Origin: Clostridiales bacterium
GTDB lineage: Bacteria; Bacillota; Clostridia; Christensenellales; Aristaeellaceae
Assembly: GCA_015056055.1 (NCBI GenBank)
Contig: SVHC01000006.1
Coordinates: 1 to 64,000, forward strand
Direction: 5' to 3'
Length of the DNA: 64,000 nt
A model generated the notes under the pieces. It did not search any database. It was not told the origin of the DNA and saw only the letters and a program-made list of their open reading frames with translations. A program made the translations under genes and the position numbers. Below are positions 923 to 42,436 of the stretch, piece by piece. Position 1 is the stretch's first letter. Every line of letters starts with the position of its first letter.

Positions 923-1273
923 TGGTGGAGGCGAGGGGGGTCGAACCCCTGTCCGAAAATCCGGCGAACCGAGCATCTCCGAGCGCAGTCTGTGTTTTAA
1001 CATTCCCTCCGCGCCGCGCCCGACAGACAGGCTAGACGCTTCAGTAGCTTCATAAAGATCCCATTCGCCGCAAAGCTTAAGCGAACTGGTTCCCTGCTTT
1101 TAATGACGCCGGTTGGCCGCGCCGCAGGAGGCTCGGGACCGACGAGGCAGCATTAAGCTGCCAGAGCGAAATTGTTATTATTCGCAGTTATTTTTTTCCC
1201 GATTTTATGGTGGTTCGGGGCCACCGCTCGCTTCTCAACCCTCCGTGATCCCCGTCGAAACCAATACGCCCCC
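923..1273 (-). ncRNA. ssrA: Transfer-messenger RNA (tmRNA)
   Basis: One-piece tmRNA of about 351 nt. The 5' end GGGGGCGTATTGGTTTCGAC and the 3' end CGCCTCCACCA form the 7-bp acceptor stem with one G-U pair. A tRNA-like T arm (GGTTCGA) precedes the encoded CCA. The tag frame lies at 1153-1185 (minus). The resume codon GCG follows AATAACT and gives ANNNNFALAA before TAA, ending in the usual ALAA degron. The gene begins 5 nt after the smpB stop, so it is either co-transcribed or tightly linked. It rescues stalled ribosomes together with SmpB. Confidence 0.96.
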
Positions 1274-7120: not shown

Positions 7121-8244
7121 ACTTCATCCTCCATTTCCACATTCAAAAATTTAAGCGTATCCGGATGCACGGTTCTTCCCGCGCCAAGGTTGTACTGATA
7201 GGACGATTCGGCGCAGCGCTTTGCCGCTGCCGTAAGATCTTCTTCCGCAAGCTGCCTGAGTTCGCGCAGCCCCGGAATCATTCTGCGTCCGGGTTCGATA
7301 GCGTCCGCCACATAAATCAGCATATCCAGCGGCGTCATTACCCGGTCTGCCGTCGTGTGCCTGCGAATTGCAATAAGTACCTCGGGGTCAAATACGTTAT
7401 AGTCACGCTCGGCAAGAATCTCTCCCGCCCACGCATGCAGCGTCTGCGGATAGAGTTTCCACGTATCGTCGGCGCCGGTCAGGTCAAACATTTCCTCCGC
7501 AGTCATGCTCTTTGCGCAGTCGTGCAGCGCAGCGGCAAGGAATGCCTGCCGTTCATTGATACCATATCCGGGAGCAAGGCGCACCGCCGTATCGATCACG
7601 CCCAGCGTATGCATGTATCTGCGGGGCTGAAGGGTCTCCTGCAGTTTTTCCAGAAGATCCGCCCGCGGCGCATACAGATTATGCTCGCGGATGTATTTTT
7701 CCACGCATCCGGGTACAAGATGGGAAATATCCTCATCCCGCTGGATGCACAGGCGTACCTGCGTGGATGAAATATCCGGCGCGTCCACCTCGATAAAATG
7801 GACCTTCGCTCCGATGGAATCCGCCCATTCGCGGGCATTTGCAACATCCTCGCCCACTCTGCGGATCACGGCAAACTCTGTCAGCGTTTTAACCGTTTCA
7901 AACTCTCTCCAGTTCGGCAGCTGATACAGAGTATCCGTTCCGATGATATATACAAAGCGTCTGTCGCCGCCCGCCGCATGCAATGCTCGCAGCGTATCCA
8001 CCGTATAGGTTCGGCCTTCGCGCTTCACCTCGATATCGCTTACGGTGAAGCCGGCCTCTTCCGCCGCCATGCGCGTCATTGCAAGGCGCATTTCGCCCGA
8101 AGCTCTGGGCGCCTTATGCGGCGGATCCCCTGTCGGGATCAGAATAATATCTTCAAGCCCGAGCTGTTCTTTCGCCAGCTGCGCAAGGCAAATATGTGCA
8201 TTGTGAACCGGGTCGAACGTACCGCCCAGCAATCCGATAGCCAA
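7117..8244 (-). CDS. NadD-YqeK fusion: nicotinate-nucleotide adenylyltransferase plus HD phosphohydrolase
   Basis: This 375-residue two-domain protein combines two usually adjacent genes. Residues 1 to about 190 are NadD: GLLGGTFDPVHNAHI with the nucleotidyltransferase HxxH-type motif, then TGDPPHKAP and DISSTQVR. NadD makes deamido-NAD from nicotinate mononucleotide. Residues from about 200 are the YqeK HD domain (MHTLG, ALHDCAKSM, LHAWAGE, IRRHTT, YVADAIEPGR), a family shown to hydrolyse Ap4A. The start is TTG at 8244, set by AAGGAGG eight bases upstream. The frame stays open upstream to 8466 without NadD-like sequence. The fusion couples NAD synthesis with Ap4A turnover. Confidence 0.93.
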   Translation of the reverse strand: MAIGLLGGTFDPVHNAHICLAQLAKEQLGLEDIILIPTGDPPHKAPRASGEMRLAMTRMAAEEAGFTVSDIEVKREGRTYTVDTLRALHAAGGDRRFVYIIGTDTLYQLPNWREFETVKTLTEFAVIRRVGEDVANAREWADSIGAKVHFIEVDAPDISSTQVRLCIQRDEDISHLVPGCVEKYIREHNLYAPRADLLEKLQETLQPRRYMHTLGVIDTAVRLAPGYGINERQAFLAAALHDCAKSMTAEEMFDLTGADDTWKLYPQTLHAWAGEILAERDYNVFDPEVLIAIRRHTTADRVMTPLDMLIYVADAIEPGRRMIPGLRELRQLAEEDLTAAAKRCAESSYQYNLGAGRTVHPDTLKFLNVEMEDEV

Positions 8245-36400: not shown

Positions 36401-36424
36401 CCGATTTATAAATGCCGATGCGGA

Positions 36425-36716
36425 CAAAAAATAACCCTTGACCGTTGTTTTCTTTTTCAACGATCAAGGGTTATTTTTGCGTCTTCTTGTTATCTAACAT
36501 CCATGGTTACCTCTCTTTCTTCATATTGACGCGGCTTTCGTCGATTTGAATCCTTCCGTGCGCTGGATTCTGCTCTTTACTTTCTTCCCAATTTCAGAAG
36601 CTCTATATAAAACGGAAGACTTCTTGCATTTTACTTTGGTTGAAAGCCGTCGCCGCTCATTCGGATTTTTTATCCGAAACCGTCAGGAATCTCTTTTTCG
36701 TTTATTTCCTTTCGGT
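36425..36716 (-). ncRNA. Orphan attenuator-type RNA, copy A
   Basis: This is the predicted leftward transcript of about 290 nt. It starts about 7 nt after the promoter at 36723-36751 and ends in the terminator at 36425-36474. The leader holds a hairpin (TTCGGAT-AAAAA-ATCCGAA) and a long-range 8-bp pairing (CGGCTTTC with GAAAGCCG). Then come AGAGAGG and the 9-codon ORF. The terminator arms contain AACCCTTGA and TCAAGGGTT, and TTTTTTG follows. No gene follows leftward: readthrough would enter the nucleoside phosphorylase-like gene antisense. Two more copies lie at 38979-39198 and 39437-39727. Confidence 0.65.
36471..36500 (-). CDS. Micro-ORF A (MLDNKKTQK) in the attenuator-type RNA
   Basis: Nine codons plus TAA encode MLDNKKTQK. 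The ribosome site AGAGAGG lies about 9 nt upstream. The peptide is matched by the other two copies, which begin MMLDTKK and MMLDTKN. The stop codon lies at the foot of the terminator's 5' arm, so a ribosome finishing translation would cover that arm. A first ATG 4 nt upstream would give only four codons in another frame. Direct function unknown; a leader-peptide role is inferred. Confidence 0.6.
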   Translation of the reverse strand: MLDNKKTQK

Positions 36717-36722
36717 GTCTAT

Positions 36723-36751
36723 AATATATCACATATAACTCCATTTTGCAA
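36723..36751 (-). promoter_or_regulatory. Leftward promoter of module A
   Basis: Minus strand TTGCAA, 17 bp, TATATT. The same position in modules B and C holds TTGCAA/TATAAT and TTGAAA/TATAAT, each with 17 bp between. Confidence 0.7.
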
Positions 36752-36815
36752 TTGGTATTTTTCCCGAATATATAAACCGAATGATATTCATATTCACGAT
36801 TTTTCCTTAACCTCA

Positions 36816-36844
36816 TTGACTTCCTATTCACTTTTTGCTATACT
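36816..36844 (+). promoter_or_regulatory. Rightward promoter of module A
   Basis: TTGACT, 17 bp, TATACT. It fires into a terminator whose stem starts about 10 nt after the -10, not directly into a gene. Confidence 0.7.
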
Positions 36845-36850
36845 GGATAT

Positions 36851-36879
36851 GTTGGGTGCTTAAAAAGGCGCCTTTTTTC
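36851..36879 (+). ncRNA. Ultra-short promoter-terminator RNA, copy A
   Basis: GTTGGG follows the -10 by 6 nt. Stem GGTGC/GCGCC with an 8-nt loop is then followed by TTTTTTC. The predicted transcript is only about 30 nt. The hexamer GTTGGG recurs at the same place in copies B and C, although the hairpins differ. Here the T tract borders the -35 of the sugar isomerase gene's promoter. Confidence 0.5.
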
Positions 36880-36909
36880 TTGCCCGAAAGCCTGCTTTCG
36901 TGTTATAAT
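36880..36909 (+). promoter_or_regulatory. Promoter for the sugar isomerase/SGNH operon
   Basis: TTGCCC, 18 bp, TATAAT. The spacer contains the inverted repeat GAAAGC-CT-GCTTTC, a possible operator. Confidence 0.65.
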
Positions 36910-36947
36910 ACTGTTACACACAAAACACAATACAGGAGGTTTTTTGC

Positions 36948-37865
36948 ATGTTCAAAATTGCCGTACAGACCGGCGGTGCCGAGAATTATATGGGCGTCGA
37001 CTTTGCCTACAAAGTAATCAGCGAAGCCGGATTTGACGCCGTAGATGCCAATATCGACCGTCTTTGGAGCTACGGTGACATTATAAACAAAAAAGCTCCC
37101 GGATTCCTTTCTGCCGCATCCGATTCCGAAGCTATGGAACACTTCAACCCCTGGCGCGACGCTGCAAAAAAATACGGTCTTGAAAACTATCAGGCGCACG
37201 CACCGTTCCCGTCCTATGTGCTCGATAAGGACGGATCGCACAACGCCCTGATACTGAATGTTCTCAAACGCGTTATTATGGGTTGTGACTATATTGGGTG
37301 CCGCAATCTCATCGTCCATCCCTTCTTCCTGCAATACAACGAAAGAATCTCCGCCGAAGATGAGTGGAACACCAATATTGAATACTATTCCAAACTGATT
37401 CCCACCGCAAAGCAGTACGGCGTGACCATCTGCCTTGAAAACATGTTCTCCGGTTTCCGCAACAAAGTTATCGAAGCCTGCTGCTCCAATTTTGAAACTG
37501 CAGCCCGCTATATCGATACCCTCAACGGCATCGCCGGCGAAAAGGTATTCGCATTCTGCCTGGATACCGGCCATGCACTGCTTCTGGGCCGCGATATCAA
37601 GGACGCCATGCTGACCATGGGCGACCGCATCGAAGCCTTCCACGTGCATGACAACGACGGTCTTAATGACCAGCATCTCGCCCCGTACATGGGCGTGCAG
37701 GACTGGAACCGCTTTGTAGACGGTCTTAAGGCCATCAAATTCAATAAAACGCTGAGCTTTGAAACCTTCAACATCTGGAATACCGTGGATAAGGAACTCT
37801 GCCCCTCCATGATGCGCTTCATCGCAGAAACCGGCCGCATGTTTGCCCGCCGCGCAGAAGCATAA
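36948..37865 (+). CDS. Sugar phosphate isomerase/epimerase-type TIM-barrel protein
   Basis: This 305-residue AP-endonuclease-2-like TIM barrel is of the kind found in xylose isomerase-like epimerases. The metal-binding Glu is in TICLENMFSGF, the Asp/His in FCLDTGHALLLG, the next His in AFHVHDNDG and the last Glu in LSFETFN. It probably isomerises a keto-sugar or inositol derivative. The ribosome site is a strong AGGAGG. The SGNH hydrolase gene follows after 17 nt, so they form an operon. Confidence 0.9.
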   Translation: MFKIAVQTGGAENYMGVDFAYKVISEAGFDAVDANIDRLWSYGDIINKKAPGFLSAASDSEAMEHFNPWRDAAKKYGLENYQAHAPFPSYVLDKDGSHNALILNVLKRVIMGCDYIGCRNLIVHPFFLQYNERISAEDEWNTNIEYYSKLIPTAKQYGVTICLENMFSGFRNKVIEACCSNFETAARYIDTLNGIAGEKVFAFCLDTGHALLLGRDIKDAMLTMGDRIEAFHVHDNDGLNDQHLAPYMGVQDWNRFVDGLKAIKFNKTLSFETFNIWNTVDKELCPSMMRFIAETGRMFARRAEA

Positions 37866-37882
37866 TTCCCGGGTATAGCATC

Positions 37883-38896
37883 ATGAAAACCTACTGCATC
37901 ACCGATTCCCCCATTGAAATCTACGGTCTTGACGTGATCGATGCGGAGAATAAAAATTTCTGGCGTCTTGCGGACGAAGAATCCCGCGAAGTCAGCGATT
38001 TTATCCGTGGCAGAAGCAAGACCTCCTTTGGCGGACGCGTTCGTTTCCGCACCAATTCCCGCATGCTTACCGTTAAAATGGAACTGCATGAGCTCTATCC
38101 CGATCCCTGCATTCCCATTTGCGGTTCCGGCGGCGCGGATATTATGCTTGGTACCGGCACGGCGAGCGTTTTCGCAGGCTCGGTAAATCCCGCCCTTTAC
38201 GACAATAAAACCCCTTCCCTTACCATAAAACTTGACGGCTCCATGCAGCAGGTAACCATTAACCTGCCCCGCAACGAGAGGCTTGCCGGTATGTGGATAT
38301 CGATCGATGACGATTCGGAGCTTCTGGCCCCCGAGCCTTATTCCCGCCCGGGCAGGCTCTGCTTCTACGGTTCCTCCATCACAGAAGGCGGCTGCGCATC
38401 CCGTCCCGGTAATGCATATACTGCAGCGGTTTCCCGCTGGCTGGATATGGACTATGTGAACTACGGCTTTTCCGGAAACGCCTTGGGCGAGGATGCCATG
38501 GCGGATATCATCTGCCGCAGACAGTTCGAAGTGTTCATTTACGACTATGACCACAACGCACCCGATGCCGCACATCTGGAAAAGACGCACGAGCGCTTCT
38601 ACAAACGCGTGCGCGCCGCGCATCCGGATATGCCCATCATTATGATGTCCAAGCCCGGATACGATACCGACCCGCCTTTCAACGATGCACGCCGCGAAGT
38701 CATCCGCTGCACATACACAAACGCCGTTGCCGCAGGCGATAAAAACGTCTACTTTCTGGACGGAGAAAAGTTCTACGGCTCCTTCGGACGCGAAATGTGT
38801 ACCGTGGATGGAACGCACCCCAACGACCTTGGCTTCTACCGCATGGCCGAAGCTGTGTACGGAATGATTCTGAAAGCCATGAGAAGGATAAAGTAG
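37883..38896 (+). CDS. Two-domain SGNH/GDSL carbohydrate esterase (CE2-like)
   Basis: This 337-residue protein has an N-terminal jelly-roll-like region (about 1-145). The SGNH hydrolase domain begins LCFYGSSITEGG, with the nucleophile Ser in GSSIT. It includes NYGFSGNALGED (block II/III Gly and Asn) and ends with the catalytic Asp/His pair in VDGTHPNDLGF. The domain order matches CE2-type deacetylases. It probably removes acyl groups from sugars. There is no signal peptide, so it acts on imported oligosaccharides. It forms an operon with the sugar isomerase. Confidence 0.88.
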   Translation: MKTYCITDSPIEIYGLDVIDAENKNFWRLADEESREVSDFIRGRSKTSFGGRVRFRTNSRMLTVKMELHELYPDPCIPICGSGGADIMLGTGTASVFAGSVNPALYDNKTPSLTIKLDGSMQQVTINLPRNERLAGMWISIDDDSELLAPEPYSRPGRLCFYGSSITEGGCASRPGNAYTAAVSRWLDMDYVNYGFSGNALGEDAMADIICRRQFEVFIYDYDHNAPDAAHLEKTHERFYKRVRAAHPDMPIIMMSKPGYDTDPPFNDARREVIRCTYTNAVAAGDKNVYFLDGEKFYGSFGREMCTVDGTHPNDLGFYRMAEAVYGMILKAMRRIK

Positions 38897-38900
38897 TTGA

Positions 38901-38931
38901 ATTGCCGCAGCCTTGTCTGCGGCAATTTTTT
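38901..38931 (+). terminator. Terminator of the isomerase/SGNH operon
   Basis: Perfect 10-bp stem ATTGCCGCAG/CTGCGGCAAT with a 6-nt loop and TTTTT. Confidence 0.9.
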
Positions 38932-38935
38932 CGTC

Positions 38936-38964
38936 CAAAACAAAAACAACCGCCCATTCGGCGG
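38936..38964 (-). terminator. Second terminator of module B
   Basis: On the minus strand CCGCC/GGCGG with a 5-nt loop is followed by TTGTTTTTGTTTT. It lies about 15 nt beyond the first terminator's T run. Module C has the same hairpin at 39408-39421. Confidence 0.65.
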
Positions 38965-38978
38965 CTTTCCATACGTCT

Positions 38979-39198
38979 CCAAAAAACGAAATACCCTTGA
39001 TTGCTTCATTTTGCGATCTTCGTCTTTCTTTACAAACTCCGATCATCCACAATCAAGGGTTATTTCTGTACCTTTTTCGTATCTAACATCATTTTTTGTA
39101 CCTCGCTTTCTTTTGATAGATTCGATTCTGTTTCAGAATCTCATCTTCGAAAACCCGGGGATTTTACCGGTACATCGGACTCACCCTTTCTGTTTTCT
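38979..39198 (-). ncRNA. Orphan attenuator-type RNA, copy B
   Basis: This predicted leftward RNA of about 220 nt comes from the promoter at 39205-39233. Its first 75 nt are almost identical to copy C (includes CAGAAAGGGTGAGTCC and CCCCGGGTTTTCGAAGA). A hairpin GATTCTG-AAA-CAGAATC follows, then GCGAGG and the 10-codon ORF. The terminator has arms GAAATAACCCTTGATTG and CAATCAAGGGTATTTC (one bulge) and GTTTTTTGG. Inside its loop about 50 nt are nearly identical to copy C. Readthrough would run antisense into the SGNH hydrolase gene. Confidence 0.7.
39060..39092 (-). CDS. Micro-ORF B (MMLDTKKVQK)
   Basis: Ten codons plus TAA, with GCGAGG about 8 nt before the first ATG. The peptide shares MLD-KK-QK with copy A. 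Its TAA is inside the terminator's 5' arm, as in the other two copies. Confidence 0.6.
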   Translation of the reverse strand: MMLDTKKVQK

Positions 39199-39204
39199 GG
39201 CTTT

Positions 39205-39233
39205 ATTATAACGCCGCACTCCTCACTTTGCAA
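39205..39233 (-). promoter_or_regulatory. Leftward promoter of module B
   Basis: Minus strand TTGCAA, 17 bp, TATAAT. Confidence 0.8.
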
Positions 39234-39299
39234 GTCGGAATTTTACACAGTCTTTTTATATCAGTTATTGTGCTGCGTGGAGAACTTGTCTTATACCCA

Positions 39300-39328
39300 T
39301 TGACGCCAATTTCGATCTGTGCTATACT
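39300..39328 (+). promoter_or_regulatory. Rightward promoter of module B
   Basis: TTGACG, 17 bp, TATACT. It is about 45 nt identical or nearly so with module C at 39829. Confidence 0.7.
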
Positions 39329-39334
39329 TAAAAT

Positions 39335-39366
39335 GTTGGGCTCAATATGGGCTCAACTTTTTGTTT
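39335..39366 (+). ncRNA. Ultra-short promoter-terminator RNA, copy B
   Basis: GTTGGGCTC-AATAT-GGGCTCAAC forms a 9-bp stem with two G-U pairs and TTTTTGTTT follows. The stem begins 7 nt after the -10, so the transcript would be about 30 nt. Confidence 0.5.
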
Positions 39367-39393
39367 CACACGACCCGAATCTGCTGTTTCTCC

Positions 39394-39421
39394 AAAAAAA
39401 CAACAAACCGCCCATTGGCGG
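39394..39421 (-). terminator. Second terminator of module C
   Basis: CCGCC/GGCGG with a 4-nt loop, then on the minus strand TTTGTTGTTTTTTT. It is homologous to 38936-38964. Confidence 0.65.
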
Positions 39422-39436
39422 CCTTCTCGCATAGCT

Positions 39437-39727
39437 CCAAAAATTGAATAACCCTTGATTGCTTCATTTTGCGATCTTTGTCTTTCTTCACAAACTCCGA
39501 TCATCCGCAATCAAGGGTTATTCATTCGTATTCTTGGTATCTAACATCATTTTTTGTACCTCTCTTTCTTCAGATAGATTCGATTCCGTTTCCTTATTCC
39601 TTTTTTTGCATTGGCTTTTGATTCTTGTACTTAAATCATCTGCCTTTATGGGAATCTCTCTTTAGAATCTCCTCTTCGAAAACCCGGGGCTTTTACCTGT
39701 ACATTGGACTCACCCTTTCTGTTTTCT
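39437..39727 (-). ncRNA. Orphan attenuator-type RNA, copy C
   Basis: This predicted leftward RNA of about 290 nt is homologous to copy B throughout. It differs by an insertion of about 70 nt in the leader hairpin (near 39600-39665). AGAGAGG precedes the 10-codon ORF. The terminator has perfect 17-bp arms (GAATAACCCTTGATTGC and complement, 39507-39523 with 39446-39462) and AATTTTTGG. Copies B and C lie in tandem, about 460 bp apart, and look like a duplication. Confidence 0.7.
39518..39550 (-). CDS. Micro-ORF C (MMLDTKNTNE)
   Basis: Ten codons plus TAA behind AGAGAGG. Its start is identical to copy B for MMLDTK and the C terminus diverges. The stop is again in the terminator's 5' arm. Confidence 0.6.
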   Translation of the reverse strand: MMLDTKNTNE

Positions 39728-39733
39728 GGTTAC

Positions 39734-39762
39734 ATTATAACGCAGTTCCCCCCACTTTTCAA
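39734..39762 (-). promoter_or_regulatory. Leftward promoter of module C
   Basis: Minus strand TTGAAA, 17 bp, TATAAT. Confidence 0.8.
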
Positions 39763-39828
39763 GCCCGCATTTTACACAATCTTTTTATATCAGTCATTGT
39801 GCTGCATGCAGATTTTTCACCATACCCA

Positions 39829-39857
39829 TTGACGCCAATTTTGATTTGTGATAGAAT
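39829..39857 (+). promoter_or_regulatory. Rightward promoter of module C
   Basis: TTGACG, 17 bp, TAGAAT. Confidence 0.65.
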
Positions 39858-39863
39858 AAAAGT

Positions 39864-39895
39864 GTTGGGCCTCACAAAGAGACCCAACATTTTTT
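39864..39895 (+). ncRNA. Ultra-short promoter-terminator RNA, copy C
   Basis: GTTGGGCCTC-ACAAA-GAGACCCAAC forms a 10-bp stem with one mismatch and ATTTTTTATTTG follows. The stem begins 7 nt after the -10. The hairpin abuts the stop codon of the convergent esterase gene and can also terminate it. Confidence 0.5.
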
Positions 39896-40812: not shown

Positions 40813-42201
40813 TTAGTCATCCTGCTCTTCCAGCATGCGGGCAACCGCCACCATGATGGCGCATTCCATACGCTTTTTGAACAGCTCACATCCGTATTTA
40901 TAAACGCCTGTGATCGCGCCGGTTGCATGATATGCATTGGCAGCGCAGCCGCCGGAGCAATACAGTTTTGCCCAGCAGTCATGGCATTCCGGGCGTGCAT
41001 ATACGTTGCATGCCGCAAACTCATTCTGGATTTCGTGGTTGGTAACGCCGGTCCAGATATCGCCGAGCTTGAACTTTTCCTCGCCCACGAACTGGTGGCA
41101 GGGATACAGGTCGCCCCACGGGGTAACAGCCATGTACTCCGTTCCCGAACCGCAGCCGGAAATGCGCTTATAAATGCAGGGACCGCCCGTCAAATCAATC
41201 ATGTAATGATAGAAGGTAAAGGGCTTGCCTTCCTTATCGCGCTTAAGCATAAGCTCCGCCAGCTTTTCATACTGCTCCATGATGATGGGCATATCTTCCT
41301 GCGTCAGCTCGGAAGGATCGCCGGAAGCGCAGACCACGGGTTCCATGCTCAGTTCGCTGAAACCGAGCTCCAGCATCTTCTCAATATCCTTGAGGAAATC
41401 AGGGTTTGCATGCGTGAACGTGCCGCGCATGTAGTAGTTCTTACCCTCGCGGGCTTCTACCATCTTCTGGAACTTGGGAACGATCTTTTCCCAGCTGCCG
41501 TTGCCCGCATAGTCCACGCGGTAACGGTCATGGATTTCCTTGCGGCCATCTAGGCTGAGAACGACATTGCTCATTTCCTTATTGGCAAATTCGATCACGT
41601 CGTCATCGATAAGCATGCCGTTGGTGGTCAGCGTGAAGCGGAAATTCTTGTTGTATTCCTTTTCGATGCTGCGCGCATATGCGACCAGCTGCTTGACCAC
41701 ATCAAAATTCATCAGCGGTTCGCCGCCGAAGAAGTCCACTTCCAGATTGCGGCGCGTGCCGGAATTCTGAATGAGGAAATCCAGCGCCTGCTTGCCGACC
41801 TCAAAGCTCATCACAGCGCGGTCGCCGTGATACTTACCCTGGCTTGCAAAGCAGTATGCGCAGTTCAGGTTGCAGATATGGGCAACATGCATGCACAGCG
41901 CCTTGATTACGCCGGACGTCTTTGCCTTCAGCTGGCCGGCCATGGGCTTAAAGGTATCCGGAGTGAACAGCTTGCCGCTTTCCTTCAGGGCAACGACCTG
42001 CTCATAGCACTCCTCGATATCATCGGATGTAATATCCTCGCGTGCGCCGTACTTTTCCTGCATGGCAGCGATGATGGCATCCTTTTCATTTGCCTCAAAC
42101 ATTGCAATAATGTCGTAAGCAACCTCATCCACGACGTGCACAGAGCCGGAACAAATATCCAGCACGATATTGTGCCCGCCCAGCTGATACTGGTGAATCA
42201 T
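40813..42201 (-). CDS. scfB: SCIFF peptide maturase, radical SAM/SPASM enzyme
   Basis: This 462-residue enzyme installs thioether crosslinks in the SCIFF peptide. It has an N-terminal peptide-recognition-type region (about 1-95) and the radical SAM motif CNLNCAYC (C110, C114, C117). VDFFGGEPLMNFDVV and LTTNGMLIDD follow. The C-terminal SPASM domain has its cysteine series from ISGCGSGTEY through LYPCHQF, PECHDCW and YCSGGCAANA. The peptide gene scfA lies immediately upstream, which makes the assignment firm. The ribosome site is GAGGGAG. Confidence 0.97.
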   Translation of the reverse strand: MIHQYQLGGHNIVLDICSGSVHVVDEVAYDIIAMFEANEKDAIIAAMQEKYGAREDITSDDIEECYEQVVALKESGKLFTPDTFKPMAGQLKAKTSGVIKALCMHVAHICNLNCAYCFASQGKYHGDRAVMSFEVGKQALDFLIQNSGTRRNLEVDFFGGEPLMNFDVVKQLVAYARSIEKEYNKNFRFTLTTNGMLIDDDVIEFANKEMSNVVLSLDGRKEIHDRYRVDYAGNGSWEKIVPKFQKMVEAREGKNYYMRGTFTHANPDFLKDIEKMLELGFSELSMEPVVCASGDPSELTQEDMPIIMEQYEKLAELMLKRDKEGKPFTFYHYMIDLTGGPCIYKRISGCGSGTEYMAVTPWGDLYPCHQFVGEEKFKLGDIWTGVTNHEIQNEFAACNVYARPECHDCWAKLYCSGGCAANAYHATGAITGVYKYGCELFKKRMECAIMVAVARMLEEQDD

Positions 42202-42286: not shown

Positions 42287-42436
42287 TTACTTGCTTTCCT
42301 TCTTCTCGCACTGCTGATTGGCAATACCGCAGCTGGTCTTGCATGCAGACTGGCAGGAAGTCTGGCACTCACCGCAGCCACCGTTCTTAGCGCTTTCGCA
42401 CAGATTGCGAGTGTTGATGGTCTTGATATGCTTCAT
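42287..42436 (-). CDS. scfA: SCIFF ribosomally made precursor peptide
   Basis: This 49-residue peptide has seven cysteines at 13, 21, 24, 28, 32, 36 and 43, of which the last six make the 'six cysteines in forty-five' pattern. The leader MKHIKTINTRNLCESA matches the family and the core contains CGECQTSCQSACKTSC. It is modified by ScfB and is a near-universal Clostridia marker whose final role is unsettled. The start is preceded by GGAGGG, and a consensus promoter lies upstream. Confidence 0.97.
   Translation of the reverse strand: MKHIKTINTRNLCESAKNGGCGECQTSCQSACKTSCGIANQQCEKKESK

Follow-up and report, generated by a model that had tools for sequence, protein, structure and literature searches.

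A family of predicted Clostridia RNA genes with a nine-codon reading frame whose stop codon lies in the terminator stem

The 64,000 nt of DNA analysed here (the window: positions 1 to 64,000 of contig SVHC01000006.1, assembly GCA_015056055.1, from a Clostridiales bacterium) carry three intergenic modules, A (36425-36879), B (38936-39366) and C (39394-39895), all on the minus strand. Sequence comparison identifies them as members of an RNA-gene family that is widespread in Clostridia and absent from Rfam. What the comparison supports is homology, a translation signature, covariation in a terminator stem, a pair of divergent promoters and the lack of a recurrent downstream gene. Transcription itself, gating by ribosomes, a regulator and any action in trans we infer from these features. 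The reading we favour, at a probability of about 0.4, is that each module makes a stand-alone RNA, and that translation of a nine-codon open reading frame (ORF) would gate its terminator and its 3' end.

The common build of the modules (Table 1) consists of a leftward promoter with a 17-bp spacer (P2), a leader, a strong ribosome-binding site (GAGAGG or GCGAGG), the ORF, of nine codons when counted from the conserved ATG, and a hairpin terminator (T1) with arms built on AACCCTTGA/TCAAGGGTT. B and C are tandem copies that share two blocks, of 206 and 210 nt, at 82-83% identity; A is diverged from both. A second terminator (T2) follows T1 in B and C and is lacking in A. The T1 folds of six copies, these three included, were far more stable than those of shuffled sequences (z from -5.2 to -8.2). 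This is the organisation that the first-pass annotation of the window had described at the same three places, and the base-by-base check of the P2 boxes agrees with it, as do the ribosome-binding sites, the ORFs starting MLD or MMLD, the terminator arms, the second terminator of B and C and the divergence of A. Three elements were absent from that description. The stop codon of the ORF is part of the T1 stem; B and C carry, 30 nt past the -10 box, a minigene ATG-TAC-(A/C)GG-TAA with its own Shine-Dalgarno site; and each module has a rightward promoter (P1) at its upstream end, TTGAC(G/T)-17-TATACT or TAGAAT, with TGTTGGG, a hairpin of small size and a run of T starting about 5 nt past it and together predicting an RNA of about 30 nt.

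By exact pattern the source genome holds eight copies, the three of the window plus four on contig C49 and one on contig C5; since five further copies exist in the same genome, and more in relatives, the window modules are more than a chance arrangement. The exact-pattern scan of a species-genome collection returned at least 115 stretches, and the copy numbers that it gives are lower bounds. From 141 parsed copies, two chance pattern matches were removed, one in an Armatimonadetes record (L170) and one on a viral contig (L175), leaving 139 distinct copies, window and relatives included. The matched records that name a group give Clostridia, Oscillospiraceae, Ruminococcaceae and similar names; nearly all are metagenome genomes, many of them from ruminant gut. 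The letters ATG-(C/T)TA-GAT and CCCTTG, imposed by the pattern, are conserved by construction in the 139. Copies found with covariance models are freer of this bias, though the models were built from pattern copies.

A first covariance model, from ten copies, matched 8 of 201 genomes and 5 of 50 genera in a family-level scan; a second, from 67 diverse copies, matched 5 of the 297 genomes scanned at order level, 20 of the 391 at class level (the class being taken as Clostridia from the group names of the pattern-matched records) and, among 299 genomes of the phylum, the source genome only, both with filters that lose weak matches. The matches L180 (38 bits, genome G396) and L043 (genome G055), in which no convincing ORF can be read, look like false positives, which brings the tallies to at best 4 of 297 for the order and 7 of 201 for the family. 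Within the genomes sampled, the RNA-gene family thus has a patchy distribution that does not reach beyond the class Clostridia. The named human-gut strain Vescimonas fastidiosa MM35 also carries a copy, at about 65,170-65,660 of NZ_AP023416.1, with no annotation beneath it: this copy has the minigene ATG ACC TAA, an ORF MLDIKSEG-TAG, a CTA in the 3' arm of T1 that pairs with the TAG stop and, read by eye, P1-like and P2-like promoters.

What argues for translation of the ORF is that reading frame, stop codon and stem pairing are conserved together. From the ATG to the CCC of the stem the distance is 30 nt in 125 of the 139 copies and 27 nt in 10, with 31 nt in two and 29 nt in two. In the 135 copies at 30 or 27 nt, which keep the frame to a stop at the stem base, the triplet before CCC is TGA (76), TAA (43), TAG (14) or CAG (2, with the stop one codon earlier). 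TGG, which the RNA stem alone would permit, is absent there. A Fisher test on the in-frame triplet counts, with copies treated as independent, gave P = 2.5e-6; copies were deduplicated only at 130 identical nt, so that related ones are counted separately and our Fisher and Rayleigh values overstate independence. L065 and L104 have a single extra base after the stop.

Codons 1 to 3 (M, L, D) are fixed by the search pattern. The 125 nine-codon ORFs have T (52), I (41) or N (32) at codon 4, K without exception at codon 5 (AAG in 107, AAA in 18) and K at codon 9 in 110, while codons 6 to 8 are variable; the resulting peptide, MLD(N/T/I)K...K, is hydrophilic. The covariance models provided 29 loci that were viewed, 18 parsed by script, 10 by eye and one (L180) probably false. 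Their ORFs display synonymous change (e.g. ATG CTG GAC ATT AAG) or an added codon (MKLDLKSEQK, MTLDIKSEQK), and the most diverged start with TTG and go on as SEPKNEQK and AEPKSEEN. The stems of these loci may be unrelated in sequence, and the stop codon is still found at the stem base. These copies show conservation of the peptide sequence itself.

Folding of 67 copies with RNAalifold gave a T1 stem of 18 bp, in which 12 of the 18 pairs show changes on both sides that keep the pairing. The stop codon is matched by the 3' arm as TGA/TCA in 75 copies, TAA/TTA in 41 and TAG/CTA in 5; opposite the remaining TAG stops the 3' arm has CTG (four copies) or TTA (three), and two do not fit. The first-pass annotation had proposed self-contained small RNA genes under selection, and had let that proposal hang on homologues, stem covariation and a transcript; the many homologues and the covarying pairs lend it support. 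Within 130 nt of T1, a T2-like hairpin was found in 66 of 133 copies versus 6.4 in shuffles; these and the P1, minigene and leader-hairpin controls given below are mononucleotide shuffles. Sorted by the downstream gene as called, T2-like hairpins are present in 19 of 39 copies with a co-directional gene at 60 nt or more, 4 of 12 with a nearer one, 38 of 71 with a convergent gene and 5 of 11 with none. Since they also precede co-directional genes, T2 is probably not merely the terminator of a convergent neighbour, though some of the gene calls are wrong (see below).

The P2 motif, which combines an extended -10 (consensus TGTGcTATATTATAG) with an AT-rich box 5' of the -35 (around TTGTACAA), was recognized in 131 of 135 copies by a self-trained search run without a shuffled control. 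In two of the 131, window copy B and L125, the search chose the promoter of the upstream copy, and their P2, minigene and leader-hairpin entries are therefore wrong. A minigene of two to three codons starting within about 50 nt of the -10 box was detected in 85 of 131 copies, against 6.5 in shuffles. The commonest are ATG-TAC-AGG-TAA (20) and ATG-AAC-AGG-TAA (10), the stops are TAA in 73, TGA in 7 and TAG in 5, and some leaders have two or more minigenes. The leader, measured from the -10 box to the ribosome-binding site, ranges from 54 to 738 nt (median 210, 129 copies) and is purine-rich (62% in the 122 leaders of at least 80 nt versus 49% in the promoter spacer). A small hairpin with an (A/G)C(A/U)UA loop, whose stems vary and remain paired, occurs in 30 of 120 leaders versus 3.3 in shuffles, and stands 71-108 nt 5' of the ribosome-binding site in 29 of the 30. 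An oddity was seen in the leader of L074 (copy at 2727, minus strand), where the minigenes ATG TAC TAA, ATG TAT TAA and ATG TAC AAC TAA stand in tandem behind repeated GTGTGGTTCCGATG-type sites, as if minigenes multiplied inside the leader.

When one mismatch each in TTGAC and TGTTGGG was tolerated, P1 followed by TGTTGGG was found in 86 of the 122 copies whose upstream sequence was long enough, shuffles giving 0.9, and 36 of the 122 had no match; an earlier, stricter scan had given 51 of 139. The match in L139 is implausibly placed and was left out of the spacing analysis. In the remaining 85 copies the distance between the -35 boxes of P1 and P2 is 64-66 bp (20 copies), 74-76 bp (50) or 85-86 bp (15), that is, in steps of a helical turn, with the 10.5-bp period picked after the spacings had been seen. 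This phasing suggests joint control of the two promoters by a DNA-bound regulator. The hairpins past TGTTGGG vary in sequence and mostly end in a T run; among the copies listed, L015, L130 and L168 have no clear hairpin. Pairing of the 5' tail of the tiny RNA with its own long RNA was rejected as a candidate: in 85 copies, using its first 14 nt or UGUUGGG alone, duplex energies were no better than with the long RNAs of other copies or with shuffles. Copies with spacings of 75 and 86 bp (e.g. L061 and L135) have a second conserved block (~AATTCTGTGTTTTGCA.AA) between P1 and P2; this block resembles the P2 -35 region, lies about 42 bp 5' of it (as counted by eye in L135) and looks like a tandem operator for a putative regulator. 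In L041 and L042 (genomes G174 and G159) a P1-like promoter and TGTTGGG hairpin stand, by eye, directly before a divergent upstream ORF, and here the tiny RNA could double as the 5' leader of that gene.

The nearest downstream ORF, for the 139 copies, was called convergent in 71 and co-directional in 51 (within 400 nt in 44 of these), and was not found in 17. These calls are greedy ORF picks and were wrong in L015 and in copies B and C of the window, where the true neighbour is convergent each time; what was called co-directional in copy C and in L015 is an ORF antisense to a convergent gene, so that the co-directional class is overcounted by at least two, which touches the T2 split as well. 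When the 903 ORFs neighbouring 123 loci were compared all against all, no shared partner gene emerged: the largest group (12 loci) consists of ABC transporter ATPases at scattered positions, and the groups shown after the second have at most 5 loci. A role as attenuator of a particular downstream gene was therefore rejected, the neighbours being mostly convergent and non-recurrent, and with a convergent gene in 71 of the 122 called copies the parallel drawn in the first-pass annotation with attenuators before resistance or amino-acid genes does not carry over. Its alternative of a mobile regulatory element fares no better. With the core of copy C as query, no match was found in phage records; viral contigs gave one chance match to the exact pattern and no true one; no transposase or integrase, nor any other gene, emerged as a shared partner; and neighbours are kept in two sets of loci (L077/L081/L131/L139/L171 and L075/L108/L172). 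Phage or mobile origin was rejected on the lack of phage or viral matches and of a shared partner gene. The one match in the plasmid collection is an 861-kb V. fastidiosa replicon typed as non-mobilizable. The second-largest group of neighbouring ORFs, a single protein family, lies 0.2-1.8 kb from the modules of L061, L078, L083, L098, L124, L146 and L159, at varying distance and orientation.

At gathering score Rfam 15 had no match on the modules of the window or of 14 loci. Permissive scans gave sub-gathering matches only, those on T1 being to animal microRNA families, and membership of a known Rfam family was rejected on these scans, with none credible below the gathering score. Two opposed Gut-1 RNAs (RF01706) are found in L079, at 7465-7543 (+) and 7639-7718 (-), about 2 kb from a module copy. 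A literature search with six peptide strings gave no match, and among the papers listed for attenuators (the subject of PMC2965389), for RNA motifs of the gut and for tiny divergent RNAs nothing matched. The 3161 human-microbiome RNA candidates of PMC8040213 could include the module hairpin unnamed.

Our favoured reading of this design is as follows. From P2 a long RNA would be made, to which ribosomes would bind at one or two strong Shine-Dalgarno sites, the one of the nonapeptide ORF in all copies and, in most, also the one of the minigene close to the 5' end. A ribosome at the stop codon most likely covers the 5' arm of T1, and by this geometry translation could keep T1 from forming. Translation would thus decide whether the RNA stops at T1 or reads on, to T2 in about half of the copies, and this choice would set the 3' end and lifetime of the long RNA. 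The minigene may protect the RNA, the two-codon minigene of axe-txe having an effect in cis, possibly by way of mRNA stability (PMC8708949). Because no cognate gene was found downstream, the long RNA or its peptide would act in trans. From P1 the tiny terminated RNA would be made, P1 and P2 being jointly controlled by a regulator protein bound between them. The modules would then represent a new class of translation-sensing, stand-alone RNA genes, defined by a phased promoter pair, a tiny terminator-only RNA, and a long RNA that reports on ribosome behaviour by way of a minigene and a stop-in-terminator nonapeptide, this RNA or its peptide acting in trans; this full version we put forward tentatively. 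Each ingredient is known; within the literature searched, their combination as an independent gene is not.

Several observations weigh against this reading. No minigene was detected in 46 of 131 copies, nor on reading in copy A; T2 was not seen in 67 of 133 copies. In both copies of L082 the frame is shifted past the usual stop and the ORF ends four bases later within the stem, and the tiny RNA does not pair with its long RNA beyond control level. The few carriers, 20 of 391 genomes of the class with filters that lose weak matches, indicate that the family is dispensable in most lineages. Finally, PMC13323073 describes transcription in some bacteria, including B. subtilis, as runaway, polymerases outpacing ribosomes. 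Should this be true of these Clostridia as well, ribosomes may rarely reach T1 in time; T1 would in that case terminate like any other, and escape from Rho would be what the purine-rich leader serves.

The main rival is that the long RNA is an mRNA for a functional nonapeptide (typically MLDIKSEQK), an intracellular signal or a peptide acting on the ribosome, with T1 an ordinary terminator placed at the stop. It gains from the restriction of codon 4 to T, I or N, from the invariant lysine at codon 5 encoded by both AAG and AAA, from the lysine at codon 9 (110/125) and from the diverged copies, which retain K-(S/N)-E-(Q/E) by the stop even with LDI replaced; stop-adjacent terminators also agree with runaway transcription. 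Residues 6 to 8 are, however, highly variable, and a peptide alone leaves unexplained a leader of 54-738 nt with its occasional hairpin, the minigene and T2. We consider this rival fairly unlikely. Less credit still goes to a titrator of ribosomes or tRNA, in which strong Shine-Dalgarno sites and short ORFs would idle ribosomes or cause peptidyl-tRNA drop-off in the manner of lambda bar. The AUG-(UAC/AAC)-AGG-UAA minigenes and variants in 85 of 131 copies, several of them in some leaders, and the eight copies of the source genome would suit it, but about a third of the copies have no detected minigene, and the two-codon axe-txe minigene, according to PMC8708949, has its effect in cis, with mRNA stability as a possible target, and is non-toxic to E. 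coli.

A portable cis-attenuator controlling whatever gene lies downstream would account for the co-directional gene called in 51 of 122 copies, 44 of them within 400 nt, and for spoVAC about 200 nt past the Vescimonas copy; against the 71 convergent genes, at least two wrong co-directional calls, downstream families recurring in small sets only and a second terminator in half of the copies, it appears improbable. We regard as very improbable a type I toxin-antitoxin-like pair, in which the tiny RNA would repress the long one by base pairing: the divergent RNA pair, the several copies per genome, the tandem duplicates and the patchy distribution recall such loci, but duplex energies of own pairs equal those of controls in the 85 copies and the peptide is short and hydrophilic. 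A functionless short mobile or selfish repeat is the least credible of all. Its dispersed, multi-copy, intergenic and patchy occurrence would fit, and the protein family near seven copies could be a sign of their movement; conservation nevertheless covers frame, stop codon, stem and promoter pair alike, in contrast to the variable leader, and the neighbours kept in two locus sets and the absence of phage or true viral-contig matches also speak against it.

Among known systems, leader-peptide attenuators (trp/his type, erm and cat leaders) come nearest in the short ORF, the strong ribosome-binding site, the end overlapping an intrinsic terminator and, in some leaders, a further hairpin. Attenuator-like, the term of the first-pass annotation, remains the best description of this overlap, and the geometry allows the position of a ribosome to alter T1 folding, the gating that the term implies being our reading of it. 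The modules differ by having no recurrent regulated gene and no run of regulatory codons, and by the stop in the terminator stem, the frequent T2 and the divergent tiny RNA; with neither a cognate downstream gene nor a shared partner they do not look like ordinary attenuators. With the lambda bar minigene they have in common an ORF of two to three codons that stands near the RNA 5' end behind a Shine-Dalgarno site, a feature also of axe-txe (PMC8708949). To this they add a second, conserved nine-codon ORF with its terminator on a stand-alone RNA. Dual-function small RNAs of the SgrS/SgrT, RNAIII or SR1 type are stand-alone RNAs of regulatory size with a small ORF, whereas the ORF of the modules has about 8-10 codons and is fused to the terminator, and for the modules no base-pairing target was found, no search aimed at one having been made. 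Type I loci of the tisB/istR type have a divergent long RNA with a small ORF and a short RNA, in several copies; in the modules no complementarity was found between the two RNAs (85 copies) and the peptide is not hydrophobic. Gut-1 RNA, an orphan motif of gut bacteria, is alike in that respect, but its match in L079 is off the module.

The family is thus conserved in gut Clostridia, and a named strain carries it; its ORF is below the length that gene finders usually handle, and Rfam has no entry for it. It offers a handle on two questions, the role of the smallest translated ORFs and the existence of attenuator-like devices as independent genes, and direct tests are possible both of its stop-in-terminator design and of the divergent tiny RNA in helical phase.

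Table 1. Coordinates of the features of modules A, B and C in the window
Feature	Position	Strand	Description	Basis
A, T1	36423..36478	-	Stem takes in last codon and stop of the ORF	Sequence, folding versus shuffles
A, nonapeptide ORF	36471..36500	-	MLDNKKTQK-stop (TAA)	Sequence
A, P2	36723..36751	-	TTGCAA-17-TATATT, predicted long-RNA promoter; minigene not seen in this copy	Sequence, base-by-base check
A, P1	36816..36844	+	Divergent, TTGACT-17-TATACT	P1 scan, base-by-base check
A, tiny RNA (predicted)	36850..36879	+	TGTTGGG, terminator hairpin, T run	P1 scan, base-by-base check
B, T2	38936..38966	-		Sequence
B, T1	38983..39067	-	Stop codon within stem	Folding versus shuffles, sequence
B, nonapeptide ORF	39060..39089	-	MLDTKKVQK-stop (TAA); extra ATG immediately 5'	Sequence
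B, minigene	39164..39175	-	ATG TAC CGG TAA	Sequence
B, P2	39205..39233	-	TTGCAA-17-TATAAT	Sequence, base-by-base check (motif search chose the promoter of copy C instead)
B, P1	39300..39328	+	Divergent, TTGACG-17-TATACT	First P1 scan, base-by-base check
B, tiny RNA (predicted)	39334..39364	+	TGTTGGG, imperfect hairpin, T run	First P1 scan, base-by-base check
C, T2	39395..39424	-		Sequence
C, T1	39441..39527	-	Stop codon within stem	Folding versus shuffles, sequence
C, nonapeptide ORF	39518..39547	-	MLDTKNTNE-stop (TAA); extra ATG immediately 5'	Sequence
C, minigene	39693..39704	-	ATG TAC AGG TAA	Sequence
C, P2	39734..39762	-	TTGAAA-17-TATAAT	Motif search, base-by-base check
C, P1	39829..39857	+	Divergent, TTGACG-17-TAGAAT	P1 scan, base-by-base check
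C, tiny RNA (predicted)	39863..39895	+	TGTTGGG, hairpin, T run	P1 scan, base-by-base check

Elsewhere in the window, positions 923-1273 (-) hold a transfer-messenger RNA gene with the tag ANNNNFALAA, the sole gathering match to Rfam 15 and the sole ARAGORN gene of the window. A cysteine-rich peptide of 49 amino acids (MKHIKTINTRNLC...) is encoded at 42287-42436 (-) and is followed, at 40813-42201 (-), by a radical SAM-like protein; the two resemble a SCIFF peptide and its maturase.

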